A stretch of 44,566 bases of DNA from positions 1-44,566 of the forward strand of contig QNYO01000089.1 of assembly GCA_003978765.1 (NCBI GenBank), written 5' to 3'. The notes beneath the pieces are model-generated. The model had not been told where the DNA came from and searched no databases. It saw only the letters and a list, made by a program, of their open reading frames with translations. Below, one piece after another: positions 20,939 through 30,680 of the stretch; position 1 is the first letter of the stretch; each line of letters starts with the position of its first letter. A program made the translations under genes and the position numbers. This stretch comes from Hydrogenimonas sp. Lineage in GTDB: Bacteria; Campylobacterota; Campylobacteria; Campylobacterales; Hydrogenimonadaceae.

Positions 20939-20985
20939 ATTCAGGTCAGTTTTGTGTAAAAAGCTTACATAAAGCTGACCTGAAT
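20939..20985 (+). promoter_or_regulatory. Long leader hairpin upstream of the porin gene
   Basis: ATTCAGGTCAG (20939-20949) is perfectly repeated in inverse as CTGACCTGAAT (20975-20985). The stem extends inward through TTTT/AAAG with one mismatch and through TGTAA/TTACA, closing on a 5-base loop (AAAGC). No T run follows and the porin start is 29 bases downstream. It is therefore more likely an mRNA-stabilising or regulatory 5'-leader element, or a DNA operator, than a terminator. Confidence 0.55.
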
Positions 20986-21014: not shown

Positions 21015-22259
21015 ATGAAACAAATCAAAATGAGCCTTGTCGCAGCCATTGTAGCCGCTACTACTACAGGTGCCAATGCTGGTGCACTCGACACTGTTCT
21101 AAGCAATCCAAAACTTAGCATCGAACTTCGTCCACGCTATGAGTATGCCAATATTCACCAAGATGGTACCGATGCTGCAAGTGCATTGACAGTCCGTACA
21201 TCGATCGATGTTCAAGCAGGTTTGATGAATGTTGAAGGACTCAATGTTGAGTTGCAAGCAATCAGTGTTGATAACTTTGGATTGGTCACAGACTATACTC
21301 CAGAGAATGGTAGTTACGACAAAATTGCTGATCCGACACAAACACGTATGACACAAGCCAATATTAGCTATGCTAAAGATGGCTTTGTAGGTATTGTTGG
21401 TCGCAAAATGGTTGGACTCGATAACCATCGTTTTATCGGTACTGTTGGTTGGAGACAGATGCCACAAAGTTATGATTTGGCAGCAGCCATCTACAACTAC
21501 GATAAAATGAGCCTTCTTGCAGCCTATGTAACACGTGTTAATCGCGTAACCACAACAACGATTGATACTGGCTCTGTACTCCTTCACGCCGCTTATAACC
21601 TTATGCCAGAGCTTCAACTTACAGCCTATGATTACATGATCCAAAACTTTGCTGACCATGTTGGACTTCGTGCAACAGGTAAAATGACAATCGATGATAT
21701 TGCCCTTAAATATACGGCTGAGTTTGCTATGCAAAATGATCCAACCATGACTGATGACAATGATCCAATATTAGCAAATGCAACATCTGCAGGAAACATT
21801 ACACAAGATGCAACCTACTACAACCTTGCCGTTGATGCATCGTTCCAAAACTATACTGTTGGTGTCGGATATGAAGTCCTTGGTGAAAAAGGGAGTGGCA
21901 ACAATGCATTCTATACACCACTTGCAACCCTTCATGGTAAAAATGGATGGGCAGATAGATTTTTAACTGGTACACCTGATAATGGTTTGGTCGATATGAG
22001 CCTCAAAGTCGCTTACAATGCAGGTGCGTATGGCAAACTCGTCGGTGTCTATCATAACTTCTCAAGCGATGCAAGAAGCATTGATTATGGTACAGAGTTT
22101 GATGCTGCATACAAAATGAAAGTGAATAAAAATCTTGATCTACTTCTCAAAAGTGCATGGTACAACACAGATGCTTCTACCTCAACATCAGAAGCTTGGA
22201 CACATGACACCACAAAATATTGGGTACAGTTCGATTACAAATTCAACGCTCAACTCTAA
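21015..22259 (+). CDS. Outer-membrane porin
   Basis: A 414-residue exported beta-barrel protein. The signal peptide covers about residues 1-22 (ends GANA). The mature part begins with a strand rich in charged and aromatic residues (LSIELRPRYEYANI) and alternates throughout as in 16- to 18-stranded porins, ending in YWVQFDYKFNAQL. It resembles Campylobacterota major-porin/Opr-type sequences and a GRKMVGLDNHRFIG segment is typical of these. The ATG has a GGGAGA ribosome site. It has its own structured leader and a hairpin directly after the stop, so it is probably monocistronic. Substrate unknown. Confidence 0.82.
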   Translation: MKQIKMSLVAAIVAATTTGANAGALDTVLSNPKLSIELRPRYEYANIHQDGTDAASALTVRTSIDVQAGLMNVEGLNVELQAISVDNFGLVTDYTPENGSYDKIADPTQTRMTQANISYAKDGFVGIVGRKMVGLDNHRFIGTVGWRQMPQSYDLAAAIYNYDKMSLLAAYVTRVNRVTTTTIDTGSVLLHAAYNLMPELQLTAYDYMIQNFADHVGLRATGKMTIDDIALKYTAEFAMQNDPTMTDDNDPILANATSAGNITQDATYYNLAVDASFQNYTVGVGYEVLGEKGSGNNAFYTPLATLHGKNGWADRFLTGTPDNGLVDMSLKVAYNAGAYGKLVGVYHNFSSDARSIDYGTEFDAAYKMKVNKNLDLLLKSAWYNTDASTSTSEAWTHDTTKYWVQFDYKFNAQL

Positions 22260-22264
22260 TCTTA

Positions 22265-22286
22265 CAAACCGCCTTTGGGCGGTTTG
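22265..22286 (+). terminator. GC-rich hairpin after the porin
   Basis: CAAACCGCC (22265-22273) and GGCGGTTTG (22278-22286) form a perfect 9-bp stem with a TTTG loop, 5 bases after the porin stop. The T run is poor (GCTTC), so it may act as a terminator or as a 3'-end stability element. Confidence 0.65.
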
Positions 22287-22292
22287 CTTCAG

Positions 22293-22344
22293 CAGTACGC
22301 CATCTGTTCATTCCCACTCCTACTCCTACCCTATTGGCGTACTG
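22293..22344 (+). ncRNA. Hairpin with C/U-rich loop, copy 1 (candidate small RNA or repeat)
   Basis: A perfect 10-bp inverted repeat, CAGTACGCCA (22293-22302) with TGGCGTACTG (22335-22344), encloses a 32-base pyrimidine-rich loop starting TCTGTTCATTCCCACTCC. A loop of almost the same sequence, with an unrelated stem, occurs at 28851-28883 upstream of the second porin. In both cases the C/U-rich face is on the same strand as the adjacent porin mRNA. Typing as ncRNA is tentative. Confidence 0.35.
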
Positions 22345-22407
22345 TTGTAGCAAGCTATTTACAAAGATTCTCTTTTAAATTTCCATAGAGTATTACTCGC
22401 ATTTTGC

Positions 22408-27309: not shown

Positions 27310-28776
27310 TTAGAAGAGATAGTTCATCTCAAAGCGGTACTCATTGTATGAAGGATCGCTCTTCGTGACGGTACCTGTTTGAGGATCTCCACTCACAATA
27401 CCAACACGTACACGTGCTTCAAGTCCTGGGAAAGATGCAAACTTTTTAATCGCATCAAGGTGGAGAACTGTTGTATCTGCCTGTACACCTGGTTTGGTGT
27501 CATCAAAATCTTGAATCGCATAGCGGAACATTGCGGTTAACCCTGGTACCAAACCAGCCTTATCAAAGCTGTAATCACCACGAACCATATAGGTTTTGGT
27601 GTTGGCATACCAGTTATACTGTGCCATGGCACGTGTAAAGCCACCTGTTGGGAACCCACGCCAAGGAGCGATAATATCGGCTTCATCGGCAATTTGAGAG
27701 TAGCCCAAACGGAATTTCCATGGCTGTTTGCTCTTAATATCAAGACGTGCAGCAAAGAGCCAGCTATCAAGACTGTTAGGATCGGTATAAGCTGTTGGAT
27801 TCGCTTTGAGGTTTGCTACATTGGCAATCTTTCCATTCAGATCATCCATCTGCACCATATAGCGTACCCCTGGTACAACTTTAAAACTACCAACAGGAAT
27901 CGTATAGTGTGCCTCAACGGTTGCCGATGCAACCACATCAGGAACCGCTGTATAGTTGGCTTTGAGTTTAAGATTTTTAACCGACTTATTGGCCGCTTCC
28001 AAAACAATCAAGTCATGATTGGGATCTAACCCAGCGGCAATAAAAGCATTGTAGTTGAGGGCTTTATTGATTGCTGAGTCATCATTGTTTGCCCAACTCT
28101 CTCCACTTGCATCTTTAAAGGTGATCACATCATGAAAACGGGTATGGTCACGCAGTTTTTGACGTGTAAAGTAGGCTGCTTTCAGAGTTGTTTGAGAAAG
28201 ATCTTTAGAGACGATTGAGAAGCCTTCAAAGGTGTTAGGAATCATCTTTGTGTCATTACTTTTGGTCAAAAAGCTCTCAAAAATTTGGCGTCCCACACGA
28301 AGTTTGGTTTTGCTAAAACGGTACTGCAAATAGGCTTGTGCCAAAACGGTCATACCCCAATCACCCGTTGTTTTCACACCGAGTCGGCTGGTCGTATCTT
28401 TACCCGCTTTGATAAAGCCGACATCTGCATTATCCATATGCCATGGACTCTGTGATGTATAGAGTCCTGCCATACCGCTAAACCCTCTATATTCAGCCGA
28501 TTTATAGAGGAGACTTCCACCAACACCTGTTGCCCAGTTGTCTTTACTGCTTGATGTCTCGGTCTTCCAATCCCACTTGAATGTATTCAGACGCAAACGT
28601 CCATAAAAGACCCCTTTTGTTAACACTTCACTTAAACGATCAACTTGGGGAGGAAGCTGATTAAAGACAAGCGTACGGTTGGGTTTGAGAGTCACTTTGG
28701 GTTTATCTGCCGCATAGAGCGTCATACCTGCACCAACTGCCATCAAAGCCACCATGCTCAACTGAACTGTTTTCAT
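27310..28776 (-). CDS. Outer-membrane porin linked to the sox cluster (OprD-like)
   Basis: A 488-residue exported beta-barrel. After the signal peptide (about 1-23) and a short N-terminal extension come alternating strands (GVFYGRLRLNTFKWDW, then LGVKTTGDWGMTVLAQAYLQYRF in part) and a C-terminal strand ending in YRFEMNYLF. The terminal phenylalanine is the usual barrel-assembly signal. The RVGRQIFES motif is typical of OprD/Opr-type porins. It is the first gene after soxB and is followed closely by the hydrolase gene. Uptake or export of sulfur compounds is an inference from position only. Confidence 0.83.
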   Translation of the reverse strand: MKTVQLSMVALMAVGAGMTLYAADKPKVTLKPNRTLVFNQLPPQVDRLSEVLTKGVFYGRLRLNTFKWDWKTETSSSKDNWATGVGGSLLYKSAEYRGFSGMAGLYTSQSPWHMDNADVGFIKAGKDTTSRLGVKTTGDWGMTVLAQAYLQYRFSKTKLRVGRQIFESFLTKSNDTKMIPNTFEGFSIVSKDLSQTTLKAAYFTRQKLRDHTRFHDVITFKDASGESWANNDDSAINKALNYNAFIAAGLDPNHDLIVLEAANKSVKNLKLKANYTAVPDVVASATVEAHYTIPVGSFKVVPGVRYMVQMDDLNGKIANVANLKANPTAYTDPNSLDSWLFAARLDIKSKQPWKFRLGYSQIADEADIIAPWRGFPTGGFTRAMAQYNWYANTKTYMVRGDYSFDKAGLVPGLTAMFRYAIQDFDDTKPGVQADTTVLHLDAIKKFASFPGLEARVRVGIVSGDPQTGTVTKSDPSYNEYRFEMNYLF

Positions 28777-28799
28777 GATTTACCCTTTCATTCTTTTAT

Positions 28800-28813
28800 G
28801 TTATAATTTTATA
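28800..28813 (-). promoter_or_regulatory. Candidate -10 elements before the sox-linked porin
   Basis: Minus-strand TATAAC (28800-28805) and TATAAA (28808-28813) lie 24 to 37 bases before the porin ATG. Either could start a separate transcript for the porin and the four accessory genes, apart from the soxXYZAB transcript. Confidence 0.4.
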
Positions 28814-28834: not shown

Positions 28835-28900
28835 GTGCCCCGCTTTTTGGTCCATTTTTATGTAGGAGTAGGAATGAACAGTGCCAAAAGGGCGAGGCAC
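28835..28900 (-). ncRNA. Hairpin with C/U-rich loop, copy 2 (candidate small RNA or repeat)
   Basis: GTGCCCCGCTTTTTGG (28835-28850) pairs imperfectly with CCAAAAGGGCGAGGCAC (28884-28900), enclosing 33 bases. On the minus strand the loop reads CACTGTTCATTCCTACTCCT and onward, almost the same as copy 1 at 22303-22334. It lies between soxB and the second porin, and may also shape transcription between them. The ncRNA label is tentative. Confidence 0.35.
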
Positions 28901-28910
28901 GGTTTACGAA

Positions 28911-30680
28911 TCATGAACAGATACCACCCGCTTTAGGACAACCACACCCTACATCCAAGATATTCACATTCGATTGACGTGATATATCGACTGTACCTTT
29001 TTTCTTGATATAGTCGGCCGTAATATCATAGACGGGACGAATCTTACTTTCACGCAGATTTTTGCCCACACTCTGAAGATTACCACCCCATGCTGAAACC
29101 ACATAATCTCTATTAGGATCGAGTGGCTTACCGTTGACTTTCAAATTGGAGATACGCTTACCACTTGGTGCACCAATTTTAATATCATAGGTCACGCCCG
29201 TCAGACGGCTCATATCACCACCTTGCTGATAGAGTGGATTGGCATTAAAGACATTATCGGCAATATCTTCAAGAAGCTGTGCAATCTTTGCCCCCTCCAG
29301 CTCAAAGGTATAAACCTCTGGATAGGTGATGGCTGTCATCTCATAGACATTGTCAAGCAAGATATCATCACCCGGCAGAAGCGTTGTTCCCCATCGATAC
29401 CCTGGTGTAAAGGTGATCTCATTATCCATCTCATCACGGATCGCTTCACCAATCAAAGCATCAAAAGTTGAGTAGAAGGTATCCCGTTTATAGAGCAATC
29501 CTTTGGTCTTACCAAGCACTTGGTTTAACTCTTGGTCATAGGGGCGATAGAGTGCATCAACCAATTCAATCCCCTGTTTGTCAGGTGTGATCAGATTGGA
29601 TGCAATGGGGATCAGTTTATAGTTGTAGTCAACCACCCTCTTGTTTCTAATGTCAATATCAAGACGACCCACATATTTACCGTGACTTCCAGCGATAATA
29701 ATCACCGTGCCATTAATCGTAATAGGTTTAGGTCCTGGATCGTGGGTGTGACCGCTGAGGATAAAGTCGATACCATGTACCTTACGTGCCACCTCTTGAT
29801 CGACACTGAAGCCATCATGGCTCAGTAAGACAACACAGTCAACCTTCTTATCATTACGCAGTTCATCGACATACTCTTGCAGGGTATCCAGACGCAATCC
29901 AAAGCTCCACCCTTCGGTAAAACGTTTTGGGTTGGCTGTCGAGGTGAATGGAAAGGATTGACCGATAATCCCGATCTTTGCACCACCCACCTCTTTGATC
30001 GTGTAAGGTTTGAATACCAGCTCTTCAAAGTCATCGCTGAATGGGTCATTGTCGATGATATTTTGAGAGATAAACTCTGCATCGAGCATATCAATCAACT
30101 CACGGACACGCTCTTTACCGTAGGTAAACTCCCAGTGCCCAACCATCACATCAACACCCAGATAGTTCTGTGCCTTAACAATCGCTTCACCATCGGTTTT
30201 GAGTGCAACAGCCGTCCCTTGCCATGTATCACCCGAATCGAGAAGAAGGACATTATCTTTCCCTCGATCTCGGCGTATCTCATCAACAACACTCTTAATG
30301 TAGGCAACCCCACCCATCTTTCCAAACTTCTTAGCAAGCTCTTCAAAGTTGAGATAGGTATCAAAATAGCCCTCAAGTGTGCCTGGTTTGACACCATAAA
30401 AGTCAGCAAAACTCTCTCCACATAGAAAACCTGGTGTACCAGTTAAGTTGGGTGCAGAGATGAGTGTCGAAGGCTCACGCCAATAGAGTGGTTTAATGTG
30501 TGCATGCAGGTCGCAAATATGGAGTAGCGACACCTTACCTACCGGTTTAAAGTCCATAATATCGGTTGCTGTAATCTCATCAACCCGTTTATGTGACCCT
30601 GCCATCAGATTTCCACCGACACCCAAAATTCCGAGTGCGGCCGCTATCTGTAAAAAATCCCTTCGGCTAATATCCATCAT
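28911..30680 (-). CDS. soxB: Thiosulfohydrolase SoxB
   Basis: SoxB hydrolyses the terminal sulfonate from sulfur bound to SoxY, releasing sulfate. The 589 residues begin with a Tat-type signal (SRRDFLQIAAALGILG). The 5'-nucleotidase-like metallophosphatase core follows, with metal ligands in ICDLHAH (D57, H59), the LLLDSGDTWQGT motif, GHWEFTYG and the HD-containing LSGHTHDPGP. A C-terminal 5'-nucleotidase domain completes it. The protein ends in VGCGCPKAGGICS, with three cysteines. Start is ATG 30680 or the adjacent ATG 30677. It lies 10 bases after soxA in the order soxX-Y-Z-A-B. Confidence 0.97.
   Translation of the reverse strand: MMDISRRDFLQIAAALGILGVGGNLMAGSHKRVDEITATDIMDFKPVGKVSLLHICDLHAHIKPLYWREPSTLISAPNLTGTPGFLCGESFADFYGVKPGTLEGYFDTYLNFEELAKKFGKMGGVAYIKSVVDEIRRDRGKDNVLLLDSGDTWQGTAVALKTDGEAIVKAQNYLGVDVMVGHWEFTYGKERVRELIDMLDAEFISQNIIDNDPFSDDFEELVFKPYTIKEVGGAKIGIIGQSFPFTSTANPKRFTEGWSFGLRLDTLQEYVDELRNDKKVDCVVLLSHDGFSVDQEVARKVHGIDFILSGHTHDPGPKPITINGTVIIIAGSHGKYVGRLDIDIRNKRVVDYNYKLIPIASNLITPDKQGIELVDALYRPYDQELNQVLGKTKGLLYKRDTFYSTFDALIGEAIRDEMDNEITFTPGYRWGTTLLPGDDILLDNVYEMTAITYPEVYTFELEGAKIAQLLEDIADNVFNANPLYQQGGDMSRLTGVTYDIKIGAPSGKRISNLKVNGKPLDPNRDYVVSAWGGNLQSVGKNLRESKIRPVYDITADYIKKKGTVDISRQSNVNILDVGCGCPKAGGICS

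Follow-up and report, generated by a model that had tools for sequence, protein, structure and literature searches.

What is the function of two hairpins that lie beside porin genes and carry nearly the same C/U-rich loop on different stems? They occur in a 44,566-nucleotide stretch of DNA from Hydrogenimonas sp. (contig C7, QNYO01000089.1; here called the window), part of a 1.6-Mb genome (G000) that is 80% complete and probably belongs to a free-living Campylobacter relative. One hairpin (copy 1) lies 3' of a gene that we call porin1, and the other (copy 2) lies between a soxB-like gene and porin2. Both loops are complementary to the translation start of a third porin gene, porin3, found elsewhere in the genome. 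We consider it probable that the transcripts of porin1, the sox region, and a TonB-dependent receptor repress porin3 translation through base-pairing hairpin loops in their untranslated stretches. The evidence, all of it drawn from sequence, consists of conserved loops, compensated stems, complementarity between loop and target, and one co-change of the two. For comparison we used 17 additional species of the same genus (handles beginning with G); because the genomes are incomplete, the absences given below are soft.

Both hairpins lie where the preliminary description had placed them, next to porin genes, and each in addition directly follows a gene, porin1 in one case and soxB in the other (Table 1). 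The stem of copy 1 is longer than had been described: beyond the inner arms CAGTACGCCA/TGGCGTACTG (22293-22302 and 22335-22344), pairing continues to a full stem of 18 positions with one mismatch and one G-U pair. The predicted fold of its + strand has an energy of -25.6 kcal/mol (z = -7.1 relative to shuffled sequence); for copy 2, read on the sense (-) strand of the porin, the corresponding values are -24.3 and -3.9, and the + strand also folds. As had been noticed earlier, CTGTTCATTCC and ACTCCTAC are present in both loops and copy 1 has an additional CTCCTA-like unit; relative to the sox loop, copy 1 carries a 6-base insertion. Loop bases are mostly unpaired by prediction.

Table 1. Positions of the hairpins, their loop segments, and adjoining genes in the window
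Feature	Position	Strand	Remarks
Hairpin copy 1	22285..22352	+	Arms 22285-22302 / 22335-22352, loop 22303-22334; 3' of porin1
Copy 1 loop stretch TTCATTCCCACTCCTACTCCTA	22307..22328	+	Antisense to porin3 translation start
Porin1 gene	21015..22259	+	414 amino acids; predicted host transcript of copy 1
Short GC-rich hairpin AAACCGCC-TTTG-GGCGGTTT	22266..22285	+	Between porin1 stop and copy 1
Hairpin copy 2	28835..28900	- (strand of C/U-rich loop)	Arms 28835-28843 / 28892-28900; soxB-porin2 gap
Copy 2 loop core TTCATTCCTACTCCT	28864..28878	-	15 bases perfectly antisense to porin3 start AGGAGTAGGAATGAA
Porin2 gene	27310..28776	-	OprD family, Pfam PF03573, 9.5e-17
soxB-like gene	28911..30680	-	5'-nucleotidase C-terminal and metallophosphatase domains; upstream of copy 2

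The core motif of the C/U-rich loops is CCUACUCCU, frequently lengthened to UUCAUUCCUACUCCU. When CTGTTCATTCCNACTCC was searched with up to 2 mismatches, the 1.6-Mb genome contained three sites, namely both loops exactly and one site with 2 mismatches. We rejected the latter, as well as one match in a Synergistaceae metagenome-assembled genome, as further long-loop copies; both look coding and are attributed to chance. No viral contig matched the 20-mer loop pattern.

When we surveyed the genus for TCCTACTCCT, a third hairpin locus appeared outside the window, preceding the gene for a TonB-dependent receptor (Pfam TonB barrel and plug) in G000 and G015. The remaining sites of the 10-mer census in the genus were nearly all coding or without a hairpin. 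Orthologs of the receptor have the hairpin in G000, G001, G002, G003, G010, G013, and G015; it is degenerate in G005 and absent in G007, G008, G012, and G016. It lies about 10-15 bases past a TATAAT box, where the predicted leader starts. The gene adjoining the receptor hairpin of G000 and G015 is carA-like, as judged by reading its sequence.

The two hairpins of the window likewise recur at orthologous places in related genomes. Copy 1 has counterparts 3' of porin1 in G000, G001, G002, G003, G008, G010, G013, and G017, the last of which has two porin1 copies; no hairpin follows porin1 in G011, G012, or G016, nor the second G013 copy. The soxB-porin2 hairpin is found in the window and in G003, G010, G011, and G013. 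On the 3' side of porin1 and in the receptor leader, the hairpins lie in untranslated regions (UTRs). Across relatives the loops retain CCTACTCCT, which in G011 reads CCTTACTCCC; the stems, in contrast, belong to the CAGTACGC-, GTACCGCC-, GGCACTGC-, or GTGCCYCR-type. In stems aligned by hand, double compensatory changes, i.e., Watson-Crick pairs differing on both sides, occur at 14 stem positions in four hairpin groups, and reading the stems on the C/U-rich strand gives 8 G-U versus 2 A-C cells. A loop that is kept while stems change in a compensated fashion at orthologous loci goes beyond chance. Together with the G-U and A-C counts, the compensatory changes argue that the stem is selected as RNA, overall on the strand of the neighboring outer-membrane gene. 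The search for further copies with compensating stems therefore bears out the earlier suggestion of a structured RNA, and the alignments support a conserved loop presented on varying stems.

Nothing points to an insertion element or mobile repeat: the copies are confined to three orthologous loci, and orthologous copies are flanked by orthologous genes. Rfam covariance models gave no match in the window at the gathering score. No intrinsic terminator was called at either copy (the loops are ~30 bases), and simple scans of the sequence immediately before each one gave no promoter that would read the C/U-rich strand. Other genera of the host family were not represented among 100 relatives. We built a covariance model from the short hairpins of porin1 and the receptor; run on 120 genomes with strict filters, it matched members of the genus and nothing outside it. 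The training sequences match by construction, and even within G003 the model fails to pick up the sox form and the long porin1 form, so absence outside the genus is weakly tested.

The reverse complement of the loop is AGGAGTAGGAATG(AA), that is, a Shine-Dalgarno (SD) sequence and a start codon. Using the pattern AGGAGTAGG-N0-9-ATG and excluding sites inside hairpins, we searched for targets. Porin3 (G000:C36:15014) is an OprD-like protein of ~400 amino acids beginning MKFAKLSLAA, whose Pfam OprD match is sub-threshold (0.002). Its start region, AAGGAGUAGGAAUGAAAUUUGC, is common, up to the -1 base, to the genus members that have the gene, with the consensus AGGAGTAGG(A/G/T)ATGAAATTTGC. The exact 13-mer is present in G000, G001, G002, G003, G006, G008, G010, G015, G016, and G017; at -1, G011 has G, and G007 and G012 have T. 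Porin3 homologs in other families have different starts. The porin3 start is predicted to be partly open.

In a ranking, for the sox loop of G003, of every ATG start of open reading frames of at least 100 amino acids in the 1.6 Mb of that genome, which is an inflated background, porin3 was first of 13,879, with 15 uninterrupted base pairs and -23.5 kcal/mol; the runners-up were a 195-amino-acid Tll0287-like protein (-23.2) and a third start at -17.8. In the reverse scan, the sox and porin1 hairpins were the top two of 8,865 G003 hairpins (loop of ~12-42 nt on at least 8 bp of stem, 1.6 Mb) against the porin3 start, and three of those ranking next, which we inspected, lay inside open frames. 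We used only the porin3-centered part of this comparison, given that counts of all hairpins against all starts are dominated by a duplicated stretch of G003 and GC-rich coding noise. The copy 1 loop forms a predicted duplex of -20.7 kcal/mol with the porin3 start of its own genome, an energy that none of 500 shuffled loops matched. When loops were paired with the porin3 start of the same genome, 13 of 18 beat all 500 of their own shuffles, and the other five had 1-15 shuffles that were as good.

In G010, complementarity between the receptor loop and the porin3 start spans ~18 bases, AUGAAA among them, with one G-U pair. In G011, the porin3 -1 base has changed from A to G and the facing sox-loop base from U to C. 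G005, which is 99% complete, has no close porin3 (best 5e-12, low identity), and the loop motif of its receptor hairpin is lost. The G011 co-change and the G005 loss are single events, and we take them as support rather than proof. They also bear on another explanation, in which the hairpins would be sites for an RNA-binding protein or mRNA-stabilizing ends, the porin3 match being incidental or arising through shared machinery that binds porin3. The location of the hairpins, in a 3' UTR and in a leader just past a promoter, would fit mRNA protection. However, protein sites would not be expected to show a match of 9-18 complementary bases to a single gene across several species, wobble-type loop changes, the co-change in G011, or the loss in G005, and Rfam gave no match in the window; we regard this explanation as quite improbable.

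According to the proposal that we favor, the hairpin modules would reside in the 3' UTR of porin1, the soxB-porin2 intergenic stretch, and the 5' UTR of the TonB-dependent receptor, each exposing a single-stranded C/U-rich loop. The loop would pair with the SD sequence and start codon of porin3 mRNA and block translation, so that porin3 synthesis would fall upon expression of porin1, sox, or the receptor. Either a short RNA would be released, for which the long copy 1 stem would in principle suit RNase III cutting, or the whole mRNA would act. That the C/U-rich strand is transcribed, that a short RNA may be released, and that porin3 is repressed as a result are inferences; production of one surface channel could in this way shut down another. 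In their conserved complementarity to the translation start of another mRNA and in their compensated stems, the hairpins show two traits of trans-acting antisense regulatory RNAs. A more far-reaching version has unrelated outer-membrane mRNAs, intact, jointly repressing one porin via mRNA-mRNA pairing, with no dedicated small RNA (sRNA) gene. The same loop would then have been independently acquired or kept, and loop and target would co-evolve across the genus. This version is conceivable, but we hold it as a tentative idea that is likelier wrong than right.

Several observations weigh against repression of porin3 by these loops. With the G003 porin1 loop, which has the inserted unit, porin3 ranks only 31st, and with the G003 receptor loop 87th; individual loops therefore differ in strength. 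Among 1,490 G003 gene starts, 69 equal or beat the duplex of the copy 1 loop with porin3, and for the porin1 loops of G000, G003, and G008, 58-121 of 1,490 gene starts equal or beat porin3. Three genomes in which we found no hairpin, G007, G012, and G016, retain the porin3 start as well, and so the hairpins alone do not maintain it. Two further points, taken up below, concern the strand of copy 2.

The rankings raise the question of whether the hairpins are general anti-SD elements, acting on many mRNAs whose ribosome sites are of the AGGAG type or mimicking the 16S rRNA tail, with porin3 just among the strongest matches. The core CCUACUCCU is itself SD-complementary, other starts outrank porin3 for the G003 porin1 and receptor loops, and AAGGAGTAGG is also found at the starts of nuoM (in most genomes), a DUF3373 protein (G001, G002, G006), and a Tll0287-like protein (G003). 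However, in the sox loops, as in the receptor loop of G010, complementarity continues past the SD sequence, through the AUG and into AAA, porin3 has rank 1 for the G003 sox loop, and the co-change in G011 involves porin3. On balance, general anti-SD action appears unlikely. The preliminary description had thought it conceivable that the loop acts on SD-like sites; the complementarity to ribosome sites holds, and our tests point further, to one conserved target, the porin3 start.

At copy 2, the G/A-rich strand folds equally well or slightly better than the C/U-rich strand in all five genomes, and a TGTTATAAT box lies on the + strand, opposite the C/U-rich strand. Both points count against the proposed pairing. 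They would suit a decoy or sponge: transcription starting from the TGTTATAAT box near 28800 (+) would yield the G/A-rich strand of copy 2 as an RNA that includes the porin3 start sequence, GGAGUAGGAAUGAA, and could titrate the C/U-rich loops at the porin1 and receptor loci. The arrangement TTTACC-17-TGTTATAAT on the + strand, the related boxes TGTTACAAT/TGCTACAAT in G003, G013, and G010, and the folding of the G/A strand, at least equally good in all five genomes, are consistent with such an RNA. On the G/A strand, however, the motif is mostly buried in a helix, and at two stem positions U-G pairs would be replaced by C-A mismatches; chance alone should give one promoter-like site in a stretch such as this, and a decoy leaves the copies at porin1 and the receptor unexplained. 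We therefore think a decoy very unlikely. The assignment of the sox copy to the C/U-rich strand is nonetheless provisional.

The promoter-like site itself (TTTACC-17-TGTTATAAT, 28779-28807, +) lies opposite porin2 and reads into copy 2, and similar TGnTACAAT boxes occupy the same place in G003, G010, and G013.

Other features adjoin copy 1. Porin1 is without a Pfam match, and its label as a porin rests on the preliminary description and on context. The GC-rich hairpin just after the porin1 stop is kept in relatives; no U-run follows it, and it was not called a terminator. Upstream of porin1, at 20939-20985, a 20-bp palindrome-like hairpin (ATTCAGGTCAGTTTTGTG...CTGACCTGAAT) sits between a TATAAA-like box and the porin1 start codon and was terminator-like in our scan. 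We also considered local action of copy 1 on pyrB, whose SD sequence TAGGAGTA is complementary to the hairpin over 8 nt. We rejected this because the hairpin stays by porin1 without pyrB following in G001, G002, G010, and G017, and because pyrB's own TGCTATAAT comes 3' of the hairpin.

In the receptor leaders of G000 (G000:C2, L205 ~2416-2510) and G003 (L213), a 5' UUCCUU stretch pairs with the receptor's own SD sequence around the hairpin; through this predicted pairing the receptor might be controlled separately. The start of a conserved NADH-dehydrogenase-like gene, probably nuoM, AAGGAGTAGGTATG (L140 1515), matches the loops over 10 bases in most genus genomes, and this gene may be a further target or a chance match. 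The start of the DUF3373 outer-membrane-like protein, AGGAGTAGGAATGAG, in G001, G002, and G006 (L100 1501, L104 203, L135 468, L136 459) makes it a second candidate target. In G003, identical stretches ~111 kb apart (G003:C1 ~1,113,977 and ~1,224,994) contain the receptor gene, the Tll0287-like gene, and others, either through a large duplication or as an assembly artefact.

If the proposal is correct, transcripts for sulfur oxidation, a porin, and a TonB receptor would determine how much of another porin is made; such an RNA circuit is directly testable, with exact predictions: 15 bases, one main target, and one co-changing position. It would also show that a single antisense loop can be retained in several UTRs despite free drift of the stems. 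A limited literature search found no sRNA work on the host lineage, which is weak evidence of absence.

Among known systems, the anti-SD-loop sRNAs of the Rhizobiales, RFM SmelA075 and SmelA099, have a conserved CCUCCUCCC loop that is presumed to block ribosome sites (PMC3927594). Like them, the hairpins described here combine a conserved anti-SD loop with variable stems and several copies per genome. However, SmelA075 and SmelA099 are stand-alone RNAs with three or four hairpins each and a generic anti-SD loop, whereas the present hairpins occur singly, within the UTRs of genes for outer-membrane proteins, and one start is matched over up to 15-18 bases by the loop CCUACUCCU rather than CCUCCUCCC. 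By hairpin number and loop letters, our hairpins thus fall outside that group.

Closer to the host, CJnc190 of Campylobacter jejuni represses ptmG at a G-rich ribosome site and is processed by RNase III from an intramolecular duplex (PMC8687705). A G-rich ribosome site is also the predicted target here, but CJnc190 has its own locus with promoters, a cis-encoded antagonist, and a non-porin target. RepG of Helicobacter pylori, from the phylum to which the present host presumably also belongs, pairs with a homopolymeric G repeat of variable length upstream of tlpB (PMC8322730, PMC8295292). Pairing with a G-rich leader stretch is again similar to what we propose, but RepG is a stand-alone sRNA acting on a G repeat, whereas the hairpins here match an SD sequence and AUG.

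LhrC of Listeria monocytogenes is a multicopy sRNA that acts on a surface-protein mRNA (PMC4132741). It resembles our hairpins in its multiple copies and in the kind of target predicted for them, and differs in that the LhrC copies are stand-alone sRNAs, whereas ours are embedded in UTRs with stems unrelated between loci. In E. coli, general porins are lowered by MalH, an RNA derived from the end of a transcript for a transporter (PMC8081044), which is, as we propose for the hairpins here, an mRNA-derived porin regulator. However, MalH exists in one copy, at the 3' end of malG, and its host has Hfq, whereas in the Hydrogenimonas genome the same loop is present in three predicted transcripts.
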